From NCBI GenBank assembly GCA_030125685.1, contig JASJYA010000008.1, positions 1 to 33,334 of the forward strand: 33,334 nucleotides of DNA, written 5' to 3'. The DNA is from Actinomycetota bacterium (GTDB lineage Bacteria > Actinomycetota > Acidimicrobiia > Spongiisociales > UBA5794). The notes beneath the pieces were generated by a model. It did no database searches. It was not told the DNA's origin and was given only the letters and a program-made list of their open reading frames with translations. A program made the translations under genes and the position numbers. Shown here piece after piece: positions 3-13,346 of the stretch (positions within the stretch are counted from its first letter, which is position 1; each line of letters starts with the position of its first letter).

Positions 3-182
3 GACCGGAAGAACAAGGTGCTGCTCGTGCGATCGGCCTGGCGTGAGGATGGCGTTGACTCAGCCCGCGTCGGCGGGGCTCTGGCCCAGGAACTCACCAC
101 GTTCGCCGGGTGGCTCGACCTCGACGACATCGAGGTCGAGCAGAGAGGGAACCTCGCTCAGGAGCTGCGCCGGCGGATGTGA
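3..182 (+). CDS. YcaQ-like winged-helix protein, C-terminal end (partial)
   Basis: The frame is open from the window edge to a TGA at 180-182 and gives 59 residues, starting DRKNKVLLVRSAW and ending NLAQELRRRM. The pattern 'D-R-K-x-x-x-L-x-V ... ALAQEL..FAGWLDL..IEV..RGNLA..LR' resembles the C-terminal end of the winged-helix DNA-binding / YcaQ crosslink-repair glycosylase family (DUF1006-like). In that family this end follows the winged-helix repeats. The start lies outside the window, so domain content cannot be checked. The family call is by recognition of the tail only; that the frame is coding is more secure than the function. Confidence 0.6.
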   Translation, partial: DRKNKVLLVRSAWREDGVDSARVGGALAQELTTFAGWLDLDDIEVEQRGNLAQELRRRM

Positions 183-243
183 CGAAGCTATCCAGCACCT
201 CGGAAATGAGAGGGGTCGGTTCGGTCTGGGTACGTGGCAGGCA

Positions 244-274
244 GTAGTACGAAGTACGTATGACGTAGTACGAC
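244..274 (+). repeat. TACGTAGTACG element, arm 1
   Basis: The element starts GTAGTACGAAG and ends ACGTAGTACGAC. Its reverse complement is closely matched by 389-420, so the two form a large imperfect inverted repeat around a 114-base spacer. Inside the element TACGTA and GTAC palindromes recur, so it can also fold on itself. The final 12 bases (ACGTAGTACGAC) recur exactly at 1733-1744. Confidence 0.7.
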
Positions 275-388
275 AGGAAGCCAACGCGTGGCACGAGTGC
301 CGCGCGGATCCTGATTCCATTTCGGTCGAAGGAATTGCATGAAACGATGCATCGCCGATTCCCCACCTGCCATCTCACCGGCGCAGAA

Positions 389-420
389 GTCGTACTACGT
401 ACTACGTCAATACGTACTAC
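389..420 (-). repeat. TACGTAGTACG element, arm 2
   Basis: Read on the minus strand this begins GTAGTACGTATTGACG and ends GTAGTACGTAGTACGAC, matching arm 1 at 244-274 with small differences. It lies about 65 bases beyond the stop of the minus-strand gene at 484-1725. Confidence 0.7.
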
Positions 421-483
421 ATCTGACTCTCCACACTCACCTCCGAACTCTTCACCACACCCCGCTTCAATCCGAAGAGCAAG

Positions 484-1725
484 CTATCCGAGGTTAATTG
501 CGAGCACGTAGTGTCCGGCCGGTACGTCGAAGCGGTGGGTTCCCCCTGAGCGCCAGCCAAGGAAAAGCAGATCGTTCCCGTCTGCGGTTCTGAGGATGAG
601 GAACGCAGCATCAGAGGTGAACCGAAACGGGGTTGGATCACCCGGGACCTGGATGATCCGCGGAGCGATTAGGTCAGAGCCGATGACCGCGACCGTCGTC
701 CTGTCGAAACGACGGGTGACAGCAGCGAAGATGTTGTTGCTCGACGAAGCAACGATCTGTGTTGAATCCTCCGACGCGTCGATTCCGAATGTATCGAACG
801 ATTCAGCATCTCCGGTCAGGCGATCAAGGAGATACCAACCCGGATGTTCACCTGTTCGACGCAGTTGAGGTACGAAATCCGGCGATGCTGTGGTCGCGCG
901 GCCATCGGCTGACCAGAGCAGCGCCCCGGCGGAGTCGAGTGCGACGGTCTGCTCACCGATCTGGAGGACGAAGCCGTCGCGGTCCCAGCGAACAATGTGA
1001 GGAAGAACGTCGAAAACCGTAATGAGGTCTGATGTTGTCGGAAGCTTCGTCAGCGGGTCGACGTCGGCGATCACCAGCGTGAATGACGAGTTGAGCTCCC
1101 GGACGTACGAGATTCTGGCGACATCGGTCGCGTGCCATTGCGCCGACGAGACGCGGGAGATTCGATACGCTCTCTCGACTTCGTTTGGTGACGCTATCCA
1201 GAGGGATGGAGTGTCTTGCACCGAAGGCGCCTCTTCCTCTCGAACTTCGAGGCCGGTAACCGCGACGAGACGGCCGCTTGTGTCAAACGAGGCGAACGGC
1301 CATGCTGTCGATCGTCGAGCGTTGAACCGTTGCATCTCAGGAAGGCGGAAGGAGGGATCCCAAACCAGGATCCACAGAGCGTGATCTTCCGCCGTGATGA
1401 GCGTCAGCCTGTCGGAAATCCCTGGAATGCTCTCCTCGAGCATGGGAGGGAGTGTGGCGGGCGGTGTGGCGTCGCCGTCGCTGGCGGCGATGGTGAAATC
1501 CCGCGGATCGGTGGCGCGTGCGTCCTGAAACTCGACCGCTCCGACGAACACAACCGATCCGATCAATCCGATGAGAGCGGCCCCCGAAACCAGAAGAGGT
1601 AGCCAGGGTCGCTGTGGTCGAAGACCGCGTTCGGCGCGCGGTGCGCGACCGTCGGAAGTCTGCTCCCCGCCTCGATCCTCGATCGGAATCGGACGAACCG
1701 GTTGTCCGTCGTCCCGGGTTTCCAT
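484..1725 (-). CDS. membrane-anchored protein with large outside domain, unknown function
   Basis: 413 residues. A charged, proline-rich cytoplasmic start (1-40) is followed by one membrane segment at about 41-65 (WLPLLVSGAALIGLIGSVVF) and then about 350 residues that should lie outside the cell. The outside part is rich in short beta-like stretches with repeated small motifs (LWILVWDP, LWIASPNE, LLWSADGR, LLFLGWRSGG). This looks like a degenerate beta-propeller, but that is only an impression from the spacing of hydrophobic and Trp/Asp residues. I do not recognise a named family. The ATG at 1725 is preceded by TACGTT and six bases, the leaderless pattern seen elsewhere in the window. It is divergent from the folate/YbaK fusion gene. 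Confidence 0.75.
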   Translation of the reverse strand: METRDDGQPVRPIPIEDRGGEQTSDGRAPRAERGLRPQRPWLPLLVSGAALIGLIGSVVFVGAVEFQDARATDPRDFTIAASDGDATPPATLPPMLEESIPGISDRLTLITAEDHALWILVWDPSFRLPEMQRFNARRSTAWPFASFDTSGRLVAVTGLEVREEEAPSVQDTPSLWIASPNEVERAYRISRVSSAQWHATDVARISYVRELNSSFTLVIADVDPLTKLPTTSDLITVFDVLPHIVRWDRDGFVLQIGEQTVALDSAGALLWSADGRATTASPDFVPQLRRTGEHPGWYLLDRLTGDAESFDTFGIDASEDSTQIVASSSNNIFAAVTRRFDRTTVAVIGSDLIAPRIIQVPGDPTPFRFTSDAAFLILRTADGNDLLFLGWRSGGTHRFDVPAGHYVLAINLG

Positions 1726-1731
1726 GGAGAA

Positions 1732-1737
1732 AACGTA
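1732..1737 (-). promoter_or_regulatory. -10 box, leaderless, for the 484-1725 gene
   Basis: Read on the minus strand: TACGTT, six bases (TTCTCC), then the ATG at 1725. The sequence fits TANNNT placed so that transcription would begin at the start codon. The box overlaps the 12-base repeat at 1733-1744. No clear -35. Confidence 0.45.
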
Positions 1738-1744
1738 GTACGAC
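1733..1744 (+). repeat. third copy of the ACGTAGTACGAC element
   Basis: Exact 12-base match to the right end of the element at 244-274. It lies just upstream of the minus-strand gene, so that gene has related elements on both sides (389-420 and here). Confidence 0.55.
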
Positions 1745-2804: not shown

Positions 2805-3358
2805 TCGATTGGAACGGCAGCACGGCGCTTATCGTCGTTGACGTGCAGAAGGGATTTGACGACGTCTCGTACTGGGGTCCCCGGAATAACCCGGATTGTG
2901 AGTCGAACATCGGCTTATTGATCGACGCGTGGCGTGACCAGGATTGGCCGATCGTCTTTGTTCGCCACGACTCGAAGATCCCCTCGTCGCCCCTCGTCGC
3001 GACCGGCAAGGGGAACGAATTCAAAGACGTTGTGTCGGGGAAGCCCGATTTGCTCGTCGTCAAGGATGTGCACTCCGCGTTCAACGGCAGTCCGGATCTT
3101 GACGCGTGGTTGAGGCGCCACGAGGTCACGGGAGTGGCGATCTGCGGAATCCAGACGAACCTGTGCTGCGAGACAACGGCCCGGATGGCGTCGGATCTCG
3201 GATATGAGGTGCTTTTCGTCGAAGACGCCACCCACACCTTCGATATCGTGACCGAGACGAAGAAGGTCTACCGTGCCCGGGAGATCTCGCGCTACAGCCA
3301 ACTCTCGATCGAGGCGAACTTCGGCAAGATCGTAAGGACGTCAGACCTCGTTAGCTGA
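2801..3358 (+). CDS. cysteine hydrolase, isochorismatase-like
   Basis: 185 residues, GTG start overlapping the previous stop by four bases. The catalytic triad of the isochorismatase/nicotinamidase superfamily is visible: D14 in LIVVDVQKGF, K88 in LVVKDVHSAF and C122 in GIQTNLCCETTARMA. A second cysteine directly follows C122. Length is usual for the family (180-210). The fold is shared by nicotinamidases, N-carbamoylsarcosine amidases and isochorismatases, and the substrate cannot be set from sequence. The metal-binding His pair typical of nicotinamidases is not evident, so I would not call it pncA. Its last 18 bases overlap the end of the convergent thiQ gene. Confidence 0.85.
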   Translation: MIDWNGSTALIVVDVQKGFDDVSYWGPRNNPDCESNIGLLIDAWRDQDWPIVFVRHDSKIPSSPLVATGKGNEFKDVVSGKPDLLVVKDVHSAFNGSPDLDAWLRRHEVTGVAICGIQTNLCCETTARMASDLGYEVLFVEDATHTFDIVTETKKVYRAREISRYSQLSIEANFGKIVRTSDLVS

Positions 3359-4318
3359 AACGACGATCAGCGCGTCAACCTCGATGTCGAAGCGCACCTC
3401 GACGCCAGGCGTCGCGGCGAGTGGGGCGCGCATCTCGAGCGAGGATCCTTCAACGCCGAAGGCGACCGCCACGATGTTGCTTCCGTCCTCGAATCGGGAC
3501 GTTGTCACCGGTGCGCTGAACCTGCCGCTCGGGCTCATGGTAACGGCTTCGAGGGGCACGAACACAAGTCCGGCCCCACCGTCGCTTATCATGCTGTGGG
3601 GCACGAGGTTGGACTGGCCGATCGATCGTGCGACGAAGGCTGACTGCGGGTCACGCCATATCTCGTCGGGCGTCCCAACACGCACGACCTCTCCTTTGTC
3701 CAGGATCGCCATCCTGTCACAGAAAGCGAATGCTTCGGCCCGGTCGTGGGTGACGTACACGCTCGTAGCTCCAACAGCTTCCAGGATCGACCGGGTCTCG
3801 GCTAGGAGAGACTCCTTGAGAGAGATGTCGAGTGAGCCGAGAGGCTCGTCGAGCAACACAACCGCCGGTGAGGGGGCGAGGGTCCTCGCGAGGGCGACCC
3901 GCTGCTGTTCTCCGCCGCTCAACGTGGTCGTTCTCCGTTCGGCGAAGCCAGCAAGTCCGACGAGTTCAAGCAACTTTGCGGCGCGTTCATTGCGCTCGGT
4001 CTTCGGCACGCCGTTCATGCGAAGCCCATATGCCACGTTTTCGAGAACGGCCATGTGTGGGAACAGCGCATAGTCCTGGAACATCAGCCCCACCGGTCGT
4101 TGGTGCGCCGGAACCCCTGTCATGTCCGCGCCGTTGATGTGCACCGATCCCGATTGCATTACAGCGAGGCCCGCGATGGCGCGCAGTAGGGTGCTCTTCC
4201 CTGACCCGGACGGACCCATGATCGCGAAGCGCTCGCCGCTCTTCACTTCAAGGGTGACGTCTTTGACCGCATCAGTGTCGGGGTAGCTCACAGAGATATT
4301 TGCGAGGTTGAGGCTCAC
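3341..4318 (-). CDS. thiQ: thiamine ABC transporter, ATP-binding protein
   Basis: 325 residues, the energy-coupling subunit of the importer. Walker A GPSGSGKST is at 35-43, the Q-loop at MFQDYALFP (79-87), the signature LSGGEQQR at 133-140, Walker B VVLLDEP at 153-159 and the switch His in VTHDRAEA. After about residue 235 an extra C-terminal part follows, probably a TOBE-like regulatory domain as in iron and molybdate importers; E. coli ThiQ (about 232 residues) lacks it. The GTG start overlaps the thiP stop (GTGA). The family alone would allow iron or sulfate; the thiamine call comes from the riboswitch, the ThiB-like binding protein and the kinase in the same operon. It is convergent with the cysteine hydrolase, with an 18-base overlap at 3341-3358. 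Confidence 0.88.
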   Translation of the reverse strand: MSLNLANISVSYPDTDAVKDVTLEVKSGERFAIMGPSGSGKSTLLRAIAGLAVMQSGSVHINGADMTGVPAHQRPVGLMFQDYALFPHMAVLENVAYGLRMNGVPKTERNERAAKLLELVGLAGFAERRTTTLSGGEQQRVALARTLAPSPAVVLLDEPLGSLDISLKESLLAETRSILEAVGATSVYVTHDRAEAFAFCDRMAILDKGEVVRVGTPDEIWRDPQSAFVARSIGQSNLVPHSMISDGGAGLVFVPLEAVTMSPSGRFSAPVTTSRFEDGSNIVAVAFGVEGSSLEMRAPLAATPGVEVRFDIEVDALIVVSANEV

Positions 4319-5982
4319 AGTTCCCCCGCCTTCGGCGTTCGTAGCGAATCGATGATGAACACGGCGATCCCTGTGATGAACATCAGAACAACGCTCATGG
4401 ACACCGCAGCCCCGAAAGGCGCCGACCCTGGGCGGCCTAGGAGGCGGAAGATGGCTATGGGGATGGTCGGTGTGTCGGGGCGTGTGATGAAGGACGTTGC
4501 ACCGAATTCACCCATGGAGATAGCAAACGCGAACGCCGCAGCAACGAGAATCGAACGTGACACCAGTCGCAGATCGATCGTCCACCACGCCATCGCCGGC
4601 TTCGCTCCGAGGATGGCGGCAGCTTCACGAAGATGATGCTGGACTGCGCCCATCGACGGACTCGTGGTTCGCACCACGAACGGTATGGCAACCAACGCGT
4701 GGGCTATCGGTATGAGGATCAGCGATGTCCGGAGGTCGACGGGCCGGCCAAGCGCGACGAGGAAGCCGAACCCGATCGTCACGGCCGAGGTGCCCAGAGG
4801 CAGCATCACGAACACATCGAACGTTCTGGCGACTCTTCTGCGAGAGTACGACAATCCTGCACTGGCCAACACCCCGATCACGACAGCAATGAGCATCGCC
4901 ACGAGCGCAAATCCGAGCGAGTTGGCGATGGCTTCTGACGGCGCAACGAAAGCCGCGCTTCTGCCGGGGAGATCGACGAGATTGATGTAGTTCACGAAAC
5001 CGATGCTTCCGTCGGGGCCGACCAATGATCGTGCGATGAGAATCAGAAGCGGCGTTCCGACGAGGACGCCGGACACACCGAGGATCCCCCACACAGCAAG
5101 CCGGTCAGAGGCGGTGATCGGGCGCGGTGGGAGCGCTGCCCGGTGAGCGAATTGGACTGTGGTTCGCCGTTGGTACCTCCCGTACAGGATCAGGATCGCA
5201 CCGACCCCGATGAGCTGAAGAACGGCGAGGGTGGAGGCGACATCGAGTCTGAGGTACGCGGTTGTCTGCCTCCAGATCTCGACCTCGATCGTCGAGTGCG
5301 TGAAGCCTCCGAGCAGGAGAACAACTCCGAACGAGGTGAAGGAGAACAGGAAGACGAGAGCGCTCGTTGACGCAATAGCAGGCCGAAGGAGCGGGAGAGT
5401 CACGGTGAGAAAGGCGCGCACACGTGATGCTCCGAGGCTCCGAGCCGCGTCCTCGATTGATGGGTCGATGCGTTCCCAGTAGGCGCCCACACCTCGCACC
5501 ACGATGGCGTAGTTGTAGAAGACGTGTGCGATCAGGATGATCGCAAGGGTTCCCGTGAGGTCCACTCCCGTGACGCCTCGCGGCCCGATGAGGACGAGGA
5601 ACGCTGTGCCGACGACGAGTGTCGGAAGCACGAACGGCACGAGTGTGGCTGCACGCATTGCCGCCTTGCCGGGGAAATCGAACCGGGCGAACACCCATGC
5701 GGCGGGGAGTCCCGCGACCAGCGTCAGGAGGGTGGACAGGACCGCCTGCCAGACCGTGAAGGCGGCAACCCCTTGAAGGGTTGGATCTGTGAACACGTCG
5801 AGGAAAATGGACGGGTCGAACACGCCGGCGGGTGTCAACCCCCGCACGGTGATCACAACTACCGGGTACAGAAAGAAGTACGTGAGGAACACCGTCGGAA
5901 CGGCAATGATCGCTGCCGTTCCTTTACGGCCGAGAGGGCTCCGCGCTACGAGCGAGCGATCGCTGTCCACTCTTGGATCCAT
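4315..5982 (-). CDS. thiP: thiamine ABC transporter, fused permease
   Basis: 555 residues with about 12 membrane segments in two homologous halves, as in ThiP and FbpB. Each half carries the cytoplasmic EAA loop that docks on ThiQ: EDAARSLGASRVRAF in the first and REAAAILGAKPAMAWW in the second. The size fits the family (about 530-560). The ATG at 5982 lies 37 bases inside the thiB gene, and a GTG at 5970 is a possible later start; either way translation is coupled. Iron permeases share this architecture, so the substrate rests on context. Confidence 0.9.
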   Translation of the reverse strand: MDPRVDSDRSLVARSPLGRKGTAAIIAVPTVFLTYFFLYPVVVITVRGLTPAGVFDPSIFLDVFTDPTLQGVAAFTVWQAVLSTLLTLVAGLPAAWVFARFDFPGKAAMRAATLVPFVLPTLVVGTAFLVLIGPRGVTGVDLTGTLAIILIAHVFYNYAIVVRGVGAYWERIDPSIEDAARSLGASRVRAFLTVTLPLLRPAIASTSALVFLFSFTSFGVVLLLGGFTHSTIEVEIWRQTTAYLRLDVASTLAVLQLIGVGAILILYGRYQRRTTVQFAHRAALPPRPITASDRLAVWGILGVSGVLVGTPLLILIARSLVGPDGSIGFVNYINLVDLPGRSAAFVAPSEAIANSLGFALVAMLIAVVIGVLASAGLSYSRRRVARTFDVFVMLPLGTSAVTIGFGFLVALGRPVDLRTSLILIPIAHALVAIPFVVRTTSPSMGAVQHHLREAAAILGAKPAMAWWTIDLRLVSRSILVAAAFAFAISMGEFGATSFITRPDTPTIPIAIFRLLGRPGSAPFGAAVSMSVVLMFITGIAVFIIDSLRTPKAGEL

Positions 5983-6995
5983 CGCTCGCGGTTCTCGTGG
6001 ATCGTGCCGGGCGCCATGACGGCAGGAGATTCGGGGAGCGTCGTGAAGTCGACGAAGACCTGTGGCAGCACAGCCTCGGTGTTGGCAGGGAACACGAACA
6101 TGTTGAGGGGGATGTCCTCCTGCACCGTCTTCGAGAGCAGGAAGTCGATGAATAGCCTCGCCGTCGATTCATGCTCTGTACCCGCCAGGATGCCGGCGTA
6201 CTCGATCTGCCTAAAGCAGCCTTCAGTCATGACTCCGGTAGGCGCCTCCGAAAGGCCCCCGAAGAACACCTCTGCGGGCGGCGAAGATGCGTACGACACG
6301 ACGAGAGGTTGAGCGCCTCCCGAACGGCTGAACCTCGTGTAGTAGGCGTCGGACCAGTCAGACGCGACCACGACGCCGTTGGCGAACAGGTCCGTCCAGT
6401 AGGCCTGCCAGTCGTACTCAGCCCCGTCAGGGTACGCGGCGATCGTGGCCATCAGGAAAGCGAGACCAGGGGATGACGTTGCCGGATCCTGGACGACCAG
6501 CAACCCCTCGTACTGTGGCAGGAGCAGGTCGTCGAGCGTTGCGGGGGGCGGAACGCCGAGCTCGGCGAGGCCTTCGATGTCGTAATTGATGCATACGTCA
6601 CCGAAGTTGATCGGCGTTGCAGCATCATGTTCGACACGGAGAAGGATGTTGACCGTGTCGATCCCGACCGCCGTATACGGGACGAACAGACCGGCGTTGA
6701 CGGCGCGGGATAGGAACGTGTTGTCTACGCCGTAGATGACGTCAGCGATCGGGTTGTCCATGGTCAGGATCGCCTGGTTGAGCATTGTTCCCGCGTCACG
6801 GGACATTTGGACGTTGACCTTGACGCCGGTCTTTTCTGTGAACTCTTCGAGCACTCCCTCGCTGAGAGCGAACGAATCGTGGGTGAGGAGCGTGATCTCT
6901 TTCGGCTTCGCGTCGGATGCGCAGCCGCTAGCGATGAGAGCTGTTGCAACCAGCGCCATGCCAAGTCGCAGGATCCTTCGGTTCTTCGGGTTCAT
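5946..6995 (-). CDS. thiB: thiamine-binding lipoprotein
   Basis: 349 residues. A signal peptide with a lipobox (LIASGC, lipid on C25) anchors it outside the membrane, where it would capture thiamine for ThiPQ. The mature start, ITLLTHDSFALSEG, and the segment IADVIYGVDNTFLSRAVNAG closely follow the E. coli TbpA/ThiB pattern (VLTYDSF ... ADVVLGLDNNLL). YASSPPAEVFF and the C-terminal VFPANTEAVLP are also typical. The ATG at 6995 overlaps the end of the upstream kinase gene. Together with the riboswitch this makes the substrate call strong. Uptake of thiamine phosphates as well as thiamine is possible. Confidence 0.92.
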   Translation of the reverse strand: MNPKNRRILRLGMALVATALIASGCASDAKPKEITLLTHDSFALSEGVLEEFTEKTGVKVNVQMSRDAGTMLNQAILTMDNPIADVIYGVDNTFLSRAVNAGLFVPYTAVGIDTVNILLRVEHDAATPINFGDVCINYDIEGLAELGVPPPATLDDLLLPQYEGLLVVQDPATSSPGLAFLMATIAAYPDGAEYDWQAYWTDLFANGVVVASDWSDAYYTRFSRSGGAQPLVVSYASSPPAEVFFGGLSEAPTGVMTEGCFRQIEYAGILAGTEHESTARLFIDFLLSKTVQEDIPLNMFVFPANTEAVLPQVFVDFTTLPESPAVMAPGTIHENRERWIQEWTAIARS

Positions 6996-7642
6996 CAGAA
7001 TTCTTCTCCTTCTATGATCACGAGTACGGTGCCTCGGCCGACCTCGATCGATACCTCATTCGTGATCGCCTTGTTGCTTACGCCCCTTGAGACGCCTCGG
7101 GTCAGGGATTCGTCCATGAGGGGCCAACGCAAACCCGAGGTTGTGACGCTGTGCGCGTCTCCGACGGGGAGGAGGGTCACAGTCTGCCCCACAGTGACGG
7201 TCACTGAGAGGGGTTGGCTCGGTGTGACGACCCGCACGACCCCACTCGATGTGTGCCATGCGATTCGCACGTCGCGCCAGGCGGGATTCGTTAGTGAGAG
7301 AGCGGCGCTCAACAGGTGATCGAGCCTCCCTCCTTCGCCGCCGTAGATGTCGATCGAGTCTGCGCCCCTGGTGACCGCGGCGCTAACGGCGAGCTCGAGA
7401 TCCGTCTGGGCTTTCTGTGCTGAGTGCGCTTCGATCTCGACACCCGAGTTCCTGGCGTGGCTGAGGCCTGTGTCGGAGATTGAGTCAAGGTCGCCGATGA
7501 GCAGGTCGACGGAGATCGACCGCGCCATGGCATGGTCATAGCCGGAATCGGCGACGATCACGAAGTCGTCGACGCCGACGTCCGGTTCGGTGTTGAGGTG
7601 GCCGCCGGTGATGACGACTCCCCGGGTCTTCGATGTGGTCAC
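6995..7642 (-). CDS. thiN: thiamine pyrophosphokinase
   Basis: 215 residues. Transfers pyrophosphate from ATP to thiamine to give TPP in one step, so imported thiamine is made active at once. Family motifs are visible: ADSG at 31-34, GDLDSI at 50-55, KAQTDLELA at 77-85 and GGEGGRLDH at 101-109, then a C-terminal beta domain with GVSNKAI. It starts at GTG 7642; a GGAGGGAGGAG run just upstream is both the Shine-Dalgarno and the 3' end of the TPP riboswitch. It is the first gene of the operon, followed without gaps by thiB, thiP and thiQ. Confidence 0.92.
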   Translation of the reverse strand: MTTSKTRGVVITGGHLNTEPDVGVDDFVIVADSGYDHAMARSISVDLLIGDLDSISDTGLSHARNSGVEIEAHSAQKAQTDLELAVSAAVTRGADSIDIYGGEGGRLDHLLSAALSLTNPAWRDVRIAWHTSSGVVRVVTPSQPLSVTVTVGQTVTLLPVGDAHSVTTSGLRWPLMDESLTRGVSRGVSNKAITNEVSIEVGRGTVLVIIEGEEF

Positions 7643-7650
7643 GCCACTCC

Positions 7651-7743
7651 TCCCTCCGCTGGCATTATCCAGCTCAGGTTCTGCGGGTCGGTGGCAGTGC
7701 GGTGCATCGCCACCCTCTCAGCCCGGCCGTTCCGAGCTCCCCG
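7651..7743 (-). promoter_or_regulatory. TPP (THI-element) riboswitch
   Basis: On the minus strand the conserved TPP aptamer parts appear in order: GGGGAGCTCGGAACGG at the 5' side, GGGCTGAGAGGGTGG (CTGAGA core), ACCGACCCGCAGAACCTGA, then GCTGGATAATGCCAGCG and GGAGGGAGG. The 3' strand of the closing stem runs into the purine-rich Shine-Dalgarno of thiN, and there is no room for a separate terminator. Control is therefore most likely at translation initiation: TPP binding would hide the ribosome site and shut off kinase and transporter together. Confidence 0.95.
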
Positions 7744-7759
7744 GTGTGGAAGTGATTTC

Positions 7760-12208: not shown

Positions 12209-12252
12209 TTCTCAGATCTCATTTCTCAGATTTTCTCCGGCATCCGGCATCT
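12209..12252. repeat. short tandem repeats downstream of ychF
   Basis: TTCTCAGAT occurs at 12209-12217 and 12223-12231 (14-base period), followed by CCGGCAT twice in a row (12237 on). A similar 14-base doublet lies at 30890. The remaining bases between the kinase leader and ychF (12022-12208) show no gene or riboswitch I can recognise. Confidence 0.5.
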
Positions 12253-12254
12253 GG

Positions 12255-13346
12255 CTAAACATTAAATCTGAAGCGGATCAGGTCTCCCTCGGCGACGATG
12301 TACTCCCTACCCTCGACCCGTAGCTTGCCTGCGTCCCTTGTTCCGGCTTCACCGTTGAACTCGATATAGTCGTCGTAGCCGATGACCTCCGCCTTGATGA
12401 AGCCCCTTTCGAAGTCGGTGTGGATGACACCGGCGGCCTGAGGCGCCCTCGACCCCCGGCGGATGGACCAGGCCCTGGCCTCCTTCTCGCTTGTGGTGAA
12501 GAAGGTGAGGAGCCCAAGCAGATCATATGTGGCGCGGATGACTTTGTGAAGCCCAGGTTCGTTGAGTCCATATTCGGTAAGCATCTCATCGCGATCCGAG
12601 GTTGTGAGTGCAGACAGCTCGGCCTCCAACGCACCCGAAATCACGACGAGCCCGGAACCCTCACCGATTGCGAGTTCGCGCACGTCGTCAACCATTGCAT
12701 TGTCATCCAGACCATCCTCGGCGACGTTGGCTATGTAGAGCGTTGGCTTTGCCGTTAACAGAAAGAGGTTCCGCAGGATGCTGTGCTCGGCGTCGTTGTA
12801 CGCGAGCGTGCGGGCGGGAAGGCCGTCAGAGAGGTGCCGTTCGAGACGTTCGAGGATCGGTACGGCCGCCTGGGCAGCCTTGTCGCCCGAGCGAGCCTTG
12901 CGGTTCTGCTTGTCGAGGGAGCGCGTCACGGTTTCGAGATCGGCGAGTGCGAGCTCAGTGGCGACGGTGGTGATATCTTCGACTGGATCGATCCTCCCAT
13001 CGACGTGGACCACGTTGTCATCTTCGAAGCACCGCACGATGTGGGCGATCGCGTCCGTCTCGCGGATGTGACTGAGGAAGCGGTTGCCGAGGCCTTCTCC
13101 CTCTGAGGCGCCGGCGACGAGTCCTGCGATGTCCACGAACTCGACGACGTTCGGAACGGTCCTCTTGGGATGCACGATGTCTGCGATCGCGCCCAGGCGG
13201 GGGTCGGGAACCGTCGCGATGCCGTTGTTCGGATCGATAGTCGTAAACGGGTAGTTCTCAGCAGCGATCGAACCGCCGGTGAGTGCGTTGAACAGCGTCG
13301 ATTTGCCAACGTTTGGCAGGCCGACAATTCCGCACTTGATTCCCAT
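12255..13346 (-). CDS. ychF: redox-regulated ATPase / ribosome-binding GTPase-family protein YchF
   Basis: 363 residues from ATG 13346, exactly the usual size of YchF/OLA1. Obg-family ATPase that binds ribosomes. Landmarks: GLPNVGKSTLFNALT (P-loop, residues 8-22), NYPFTTIDPN (G2 region), VEFVDIAGLVAGAS (Walker B/G3), the family NVAE segment in YIANVAEDGLD, which replaces the usual NKxD and goes with ATP preference, and a C-terminal TGS-like domain ending VAEGDLIRFRFNV. GGAG lies six bases before the ATG. An earlier in-frame start at 13415 would add an unconserved extension. Divergent from the hydratase gene. Confidence 0.95.
   Translation of the reverse strand: MGIKCGIVGLPNVGKSTLFNALTGGSIAAENYPFTTIDPNNGIATVPDPRLGAIADIVHPKRTVPNVVEFVDIAGLVAGASEGEGLGNRFLSHIRETDAIAHIVRCFEDDNVVHVDGRIDPVEDITTVATELALADLETVTRSLDKQNRKARSGDKAAQAAVPILERLERHLSDGLPARTLAYNDAEHSILRNLFLLTAKPTLYIANVAEDGLDDNAMVDDVRELAIGEGSGLVVISGALEAELSALTTSDRDEMLTEYGLNEPGLHKVIRATYDLLGLLTFFTTSEKEARAWSIRRGSRAPQAAGVIHTDFERGFIKAEVIGYDDYIEFNGEAGTRDAGKLRVEGREYIVAEGDLIRFRFNV

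Follow-up and report, generated by a model that had tools for sequence, protein, structure and literature searches.

What is the short motif ACGTAGTACGAC, which recurs on both sides of a minus-strand gene in the genome of an Acidimicrobiia bacterium? The window analyzed here is a whole contig (C58) of 33,334 nucleotides from that genome (G000; 1.88 Mb in 181 contigs). An earlier note, made from the sequence of the window, had placed a 31-base arm at 244-274, an inverted 32-base partner at 389-420, and an exact 12-base copy at 1733-1744, and had offered three readings: a REP-type family, a regulator site, or the remains of a small non-autonomous mobile unit. All of these coordinates were correct. 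Sequences with at most 2 mismatches to ACGTAGTACGAC occur 8 times in the window against 1.53 expected, a count reached in 0 of 100 shuffles. The genome-wide search that the note had proposed returned 28 exact copies and none in the reversed control, showing that the repeats are real and present throughout the genome. A repeat with no further copies and no conservation would, according to the note, have been a local duplication; both copies and conservation were found.

The inverted pair turned out to lie inside a longer unit, at 194-481, that the note had missed (Table 1). We followed the sequence outward from arrays of related genomes and derived two conserved end words, A (CTTCGGAAATGAGCGGGGTCGG) and B (CTTCGGATTTGAGCGGGGTGTGG). 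Counterparts of both bound the 288-bp unit, and they begin with A and T in place of G. A check for target-site duplications, also suggested in the note, revealed a perfect 8-bp repeat (8/8 identical) of AGCTATCC at 186-193 and 482-489. The unit contains no transposase gene; only short overlapping chance ORFs of 61 to 99 aa cross it. Between the inverted arrays lies an interior of about 114 bp, for which blastn found similar sequences at other G000 loci (L131, 71% over 106 bp; L027, 78% over 89 bp; L022, 76% over 72 bp), in alignments that include part of the array. Folding of the 288-nt unit is stronger than that of shuffled versions (z = -4.9 and -4.7 as RNA for the two strands and -4.8 as DNA), as would be the case for any unit with long inverted arms.

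Table 1. Features of the window around the mobile unit and the adjacent minus-strand gene
Feature	Position	Strand	Remarks
C-terminal end of neighboring gene, cut by contig start; stop at 180-182	3-182	+	Conserved beside the minus-strand gene in L106-L109
Left copy of 8-bp target-site duplication AGCTATCC	186-193		Identical to 482-489; junction empty in 4/4 syntenic relatives
Complete ISL3-type MITE (very probable), 288 bp, between two convergent genes	194-481		A-type and B-type end, 8-bp duplication; empty site
A-type end AGCACCTCGGAAATGAGAGGGGTCGG, counterpart of ISL3 left end in G010 and G016	194-219	+	2 mismatches in 22 to CTTCGGAAATGAGCGGGGTCGG
Left heptamer array, GTAGT-ACGAAGT-ACGTATG-ACGTAGT-ACGAC	244-274	+	Model R1, E = 7.2e-10
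MITE interior between arrays	275-388		Right part resembles interiors of other G000 array loci
Right heptamer array, inverted	389-420	-	Model R1, E = 1.7e-5
B-type end (reverse complement TGCTCTTCGGATTGAAGCGGGGTGTG), corresponding to the right end of the G010 and G016 ISL3 elements	456-481	-	2 mismatches in 23 to B word
Right copy of target-site duplication AGCTATCC; supplies stop of minus-strand gene (484-486)	482-489		Identical to 186-193
Conserved gene, 413 aa	484-1725	-	Homologs in 6/15 relatives at E <= 0.001
Free minimal heptamer array GTCGTACTACGT, outside MITE	1733-1744	-	No A- or B-type end nearby; ACGTAGTAC likewise placed in G016 (L109)

The same junction is empty in relatives. Four (L106-L109) of the 6 non-self loci with a homolog of the 413-aa protein retain the left neighbor and the folate cyclo-ligase gene in an unchanged order; the element is absent from all 4, and the facing stop codons are 0 to 6 bp apart, as judged by eye. 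Once 194-481 and one copy of AGCTATCC are taken out of the window, the facing stops are 5 bp apart. The A- and B-type ends, the 8-bp duplication, and the empty junction in relatives therefore point to an intact ISL3-type MITE at 194-481, a reading to which we assign a probability of roughly 0.9. The MITE is ordinary in kind. The earlier suggestion of a small non-autonomous mobile unit was sound for the pair, but the word "remains" was not, since both ends and the perfect target duplication are intact.

The 413-aa product of the minus-strand gene matched no Pfam or NCBIfam entry. At 1614-2804, a single ORF combines a 5-formyltetrahydrofolate cyclo-ligase domain (PF01812) with an aminoacyl-tRNA editing domain (PF04073), a joined form that aligns over 331 to 386 aa in L106-L110 too. 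ARAGORN called a tRNA-Ala (GGC) at 1447-1527 on the plus strand, opposite the coding region of 484-1725, which is probably a false positive. Farther into the window, a TPP riboswitch (RF00059, 65 bits) lies at 7633-7753 on the minus strand, upstream of minus-strand ABC transporter genes at 3341-6995.

The unit is one of several with such ends. There are 10 end-like sites in G000, and 18 of 99 relatives have such ends; the reversed control gave none in any genome. Short MITEs of 111 to 143 bp hold one central array between A and B ends (L093, L101, L087, L096, and L089), and longer ones of 282 to 290 bp hold two inverted arrays around an interior. A survey of all fetched loci up to L111 yielded 23 pairs of facing ends. 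Their flanks matched at 6 or more of 8 positions in 13 pairs (11/21 without the two insertion sequences), compared with 8 of 506 control pairings in which the left and right flanks were taken from different elements. With the two insertion sequences included, 5 of the 13 matched at 8/8, 4 at 7/8, and 4 at 6/8. The other 10 pairs, with mispaired or decayed ends among them, matched at 5/8 or fewer and showed no duplication; many copies are therefore old, rearranged, or mispaired. Poor duplications were seen in two further G000 elements, L143 (about 5/8, by eye) and L080 (2/8). In G051, which belongs to another family of the order, 28 ISL3-like ends were found, many of them about 50 bases from contig ends, the pattern expected when a multicopy insertion sequence breaks the assembly.

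Elements that carry both these ends and a transposase are present in relatives. A search with PF01610 (ISL3 transposase) found it in 4 of 18 genomes (G003, G009, G010, and G016). The left end of the G010 element (L069; 1382 bp) is CTTCGGAAATGAGCGGGGTCGG, matching A at 22/22 positions, and its right end, CTTCGGATTTCAGCGGGGTGTGA, matches B at 21/23; the G016 element (L070; 1397 bp) matches the A word at 21/22 and the B word at 21/23. The L069 protein scored 253 bits against the ISL3 transposase model NF033550 (cutoff, 180), 178 bits against PF01610, and 25.3 against the HTH_Tnp_ISL3 Pfam entry, for which the cutoff is 27.4. PF01610 had 0 matches in G000 (181 contigs, 96% complete). The only ISL3 transposase found there is a truncated remnant, L094; an intact copy in the same genome is not strictly a defining feature of such a MITE, and its lack bears on present activity and not on descent. 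This locus, on contig C137, holds the 3' end of the transposase gene together with a B end, near another TACG array. An intact ISL3 transposase was not found in G034, G046, G048, or G039, though MITEs are common in these genomes.

We infer that an ISL3 transposase did the moving. In the proposed mechanism, a MITE that keeps the ISL3 left (A) and right (B) ends, without the transposase and with two inverted arrays in between, would be bound at its ends and moved by an ISL3 transposase acting in trans. Insertion between two convergent genes would then duplicate 8 bp of the target, AGCTATCC. The classical ISL3 target duplication is likewise given as 8 bp (PMC7643977).

The motif that first drew attention is not the mobile end. 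Alignment of 80 copies showed that the TACGTAGTACG motif is a 7-bp tandem array with units ACGTAGT, ACGTATG, ACGAAGT, and variants, closing with ACGAC; the copies were chosen by the exact 12-mer, which makes its invariance among them a product of the selection, and in a few rows a single place is represented again through overlapping loci. A second alignment of the motif comprised 35 sequences. The nested palindromes described in the earlier note arise from these tandem units. Neither of the two ISL3 elements L069 and L070 contains heptamer words. Heptamer arrays are a known and only partly understood class, and those studied here exist independently of the MITE, which probably bears them as cargo.

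A 31-position array model had 51 matches in G000, 41 in G016, 32 in G046, 31 in G034, 30 in G039, 12 in G001, 6 in G048, and 2 in G021; the remaining 7 of the 15 genomes had none. The exact 12-mer occurred in 21 of the 99 genomes of the relatives search and was strong in few besides G000 (17 copies in G034, 14 in G046, 8 each in G016 and G039, and 4 in G048). Among GTDB species genomes, from which G000 records may have been left out, the 19-mer ACGTATSACGTAGTACGAC was found in 18 stretches, only in five Acidimicrobiia/Actinomycetes metagenome-assembled genomes. We scored a 12-mer as MITE-borne when an A or B end lay at most 140 bp away on its outer side, a test that 12 of 1400 random windows passed. 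MITE ends were found in this way for 5/5 fetched 12-mers in G039, 4/4 in G048, 9/17 in G034, 6/14 in G046, 3/28 in G000, 1/3 in G001, 0/1 in G004, and 0/7 in G016. In some genomes, therefore, most arrays belong to MITEs, and in G000 and G016 most are free.

The list of array clusters in G000 has 49 entries, one of which (L012:11-42) duplicates the left array of the window. Most of the 48 distinct clusters lie between ORFs or at their edges, according to simple and crude ORF calls; several of the clusters overlap chance ORFs. Seven clusters were flagged as being near a MITE end; two of these flags (L017 and L024) rest on 7 mismatches in 22 and are probably due to chance. A second, smaller repeated unit was seen at L008:1432-1523 and L026:1432-1512. 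It consists of two inverted TACG arrays without ISL3 ends, has a shared interior of about 40-50 bp, and aligns at 79% over 81 bp.

Some free arrays stand 3 to 9 bases from a start codon (L006, L007, L026, L028, and 1733-1744 in the window). The window's piece, GTCGTACTACGT, precedes the ATG of the 484-1725 gene by 7 bases, and ACGTAGTAC occupies the same position upstream of the orthologous gene in G016 (L109), another genus; it is absent there in L106-L108. G000 and G016 likewise have arrays at one and the same position 3' of rplL, as do G000 and G001 upstream of a pcrA-like helicase gene (both gene names assigned by eye), and at the L019/L044/L159 junction an array is common to G000, G001, and G016. 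Three further pairs proposed by blastn as shared array sites (L001/L154, L014/L163, and L134/L160) were rejected, as the arrays are differently placed. The L016/L066 junction, with arrays in both genomes in opposite orientation and at different distances, was not counted as conserved.

Seven-base periodicity extends beyond the TACG family. In 9.8 kb of G000 non-coding DNA, mostly picked for its TACG arrays, exact 6-mer repeats at lag 7 amounted to 74 per 10,000, and other lags stayed below 13 per 10,000 except 14 and 21, multiples of seven; after masking of the TACG words, 33 per 10,000 remained at lag 7. Stretches unselected for arrays (the window and 20 relatives, about 33 kb non-coding) had 29 lag-7 sites in 9 of 21 genomes, 1 of them the window's own array, compared with at most 7 sites at any other lag from 4 to 12. 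The window itself has two other 7-bp arrays at 12210-12255 (TCTCAGA and TCCGGCA), unrelated to the TACG family.

For 14 free-array sites of G000, we compared the orthologous junctions in G001, G002, and G003 (29 junction-genome pairs), counting a score of at least 9 as an array. Heptamer arrays were present in 7 of the 29 pairs (G002, 5/9; G001, 2/9; G003, 0/11), and most belonged to other families (TCGTCAG/TCGTGTG, CTGTGAA, CAGTTCA, ACGACCT, and GTCTTCA). The count of 7/29 exceeds that in control gene-edge windows, some of them partly coding (15/518; p = 5.5e-5), and the excess is weaker against intergenic gaps of 45-500 bp (6/119; Fisher p = 0.004); in both comparisons, loci from the same genome are not independent of one another, and part of the sites had already been noticed by eye when the count was made. 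Assignment by ORF gaps lost 11 of the 29 site-genome pairs, and the 7/29 count instead draws, for every pair, on the 180 bases that follow the aligned flank. On these small numbers, the arrays seem to keep their place and change their sequence across sister species. A tentative and on balance unlikely extension is that heptamer arrays renew themselves at certain gene edges over genus-level time, with the family being replaced by each genome's dominant heptamer, and that the ISL3 MITE with captured TACGTAGT serves as a vehicle that seeds new genomes and junctions.

One rival holds that the TACGTAGTACG arrays influence neighboring genes as binding sites or as RNA hairpins, with the window pair as a bidirectional terminator between the convergent genes. 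It draws on the free arrays at gene edges and on the junctions that bear arrays in more than one species (3' of rplL, L019/L044/L159, the pcrA-like helicase gene, and the 12-base piece). The window pair, however, belongs to a transposed unit that is absent in 4/4 relatives. Consensus scanning of 100-1900 found 0 terminator-like and 0 promoter-like sites, and Rfam had no match there at E <= 1. Moreover, the presence of unrelated heptamers at the same junctions in sister species argues against a sequence-specific site. We consider this explanation improbable. The note's regulator site is likewise improbable for the pair; the free 12-base piece may be one, with the same motif and position at an orthologous gene in another genus. 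The placement of that piece on a -10 box was unsupported by the scan, which is weak evidence in an actinobacterium. The pair and the piece do lie on either side of the gene, but the arrangement is incidental, as they are two different things.

A REP/REPIN-type origin, in which two inverted REPs fold into a hairpin that a REP-associated tyrosine transposase (RAYT) mobilizes, would account for the inverted pairing of a short palindromic repeat, for its many, apparently intergenic copies, and for the strong hairpin (z scores as above). The search for such a transposase that the note had called for found Y1_Tnp (PF01797) in 0 of 12 genomes (G000 and close relatives), compared with 5 of 14 control genomes. 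The window unit has ISL3 ends and an 8-bp target duplication, and its repeat is a heptamer tandem array rather than a REP palindrome; we rejected this origin, which is very improbable with RAYTs absent from 12/12 genomes. Least probable of all, to the point of being negligible, is an immobile low-complexity patch born by slippage, a local duplication or chance product that the 7-bp tandem units and the several array sequences in G000 might suggest and that, for the inverted pair, is refuted by the 28 exact copies against 0 in reversed controls, the shared ends, the 8-bp duplication, and the empty sites.

Heptameric intergenic repeats are familiar from cyanobacteria as STRR. Heptameric repeats are reported to be over-represented in many bacteria and to be intergenic in Xanthomonas (GGGAATC) and Nostoc (GGGGA(T/C)T), with polymerase slippage proposed (PMC4692102). 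Like those, the arrays described here are imperfect 7-bp tandem units, apparently intergenic, at many loci, and variable in length and sequence between relatives; they differ in sequence, in that one family also lies inside a MITE, and in that several families seem to alternate at the same junctions in sister species. Marine Beggiatoaceae are described as having TAACTGA heptamer arrays, many just before start codons (PMC4679880). Both are sets of 7-bp repeats, and some free arrays here are 3-9 bases from a start codon, but the sequence is another one and many of our arrays lie at the 3' end of a gene or form inverted pairs. REPINs, reported as inverted doublets of a short extragenic palindromic repeat that occur with RAYTs (PMC3116915), resemble the window pair in being such doublets and differ from it in that RAYTs are found in 0/12 genomes here, with ISL3 ends and an 8-bp duplication instead.

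The ISL3-type MITE of the window shares with ISL3 insertion sequences and IS-derived MITEs the ends, which match those of ISL3 elements of the same bacterial family, as well as the 8-bp duplication (PMC7643977), the lack of an internal transposase, and the presence of several copies. Unlike the parent elements, it bears heptamer arrays, and no intact transposase was found in its own genome. In the literature on ISL3, MITEs, heptameric and small dispersed repeats, and actinobacteria or Acidimicrobiia, as represented by titles and the openings of abstracts and with subscription papers mostly outside, the element is not described.

The mobile part, with its ISL3 ends, can now be told apart from the conspicuous motif, the heptamer arrays. 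Without this distinction, the arrays would be mistaken for REPs or regulator boxes. Heptameric intergenic repeats are an already-known bacterial phenomenon that is presented as unexplained (PMC4692102, PMC4679880). With different heptamers at the same junctions in related species and one family inside a transposon, the arrays offer a small comparative system for the old question of what makes 7-bp repeats so frequent in the intergenic DNA of bacteria.
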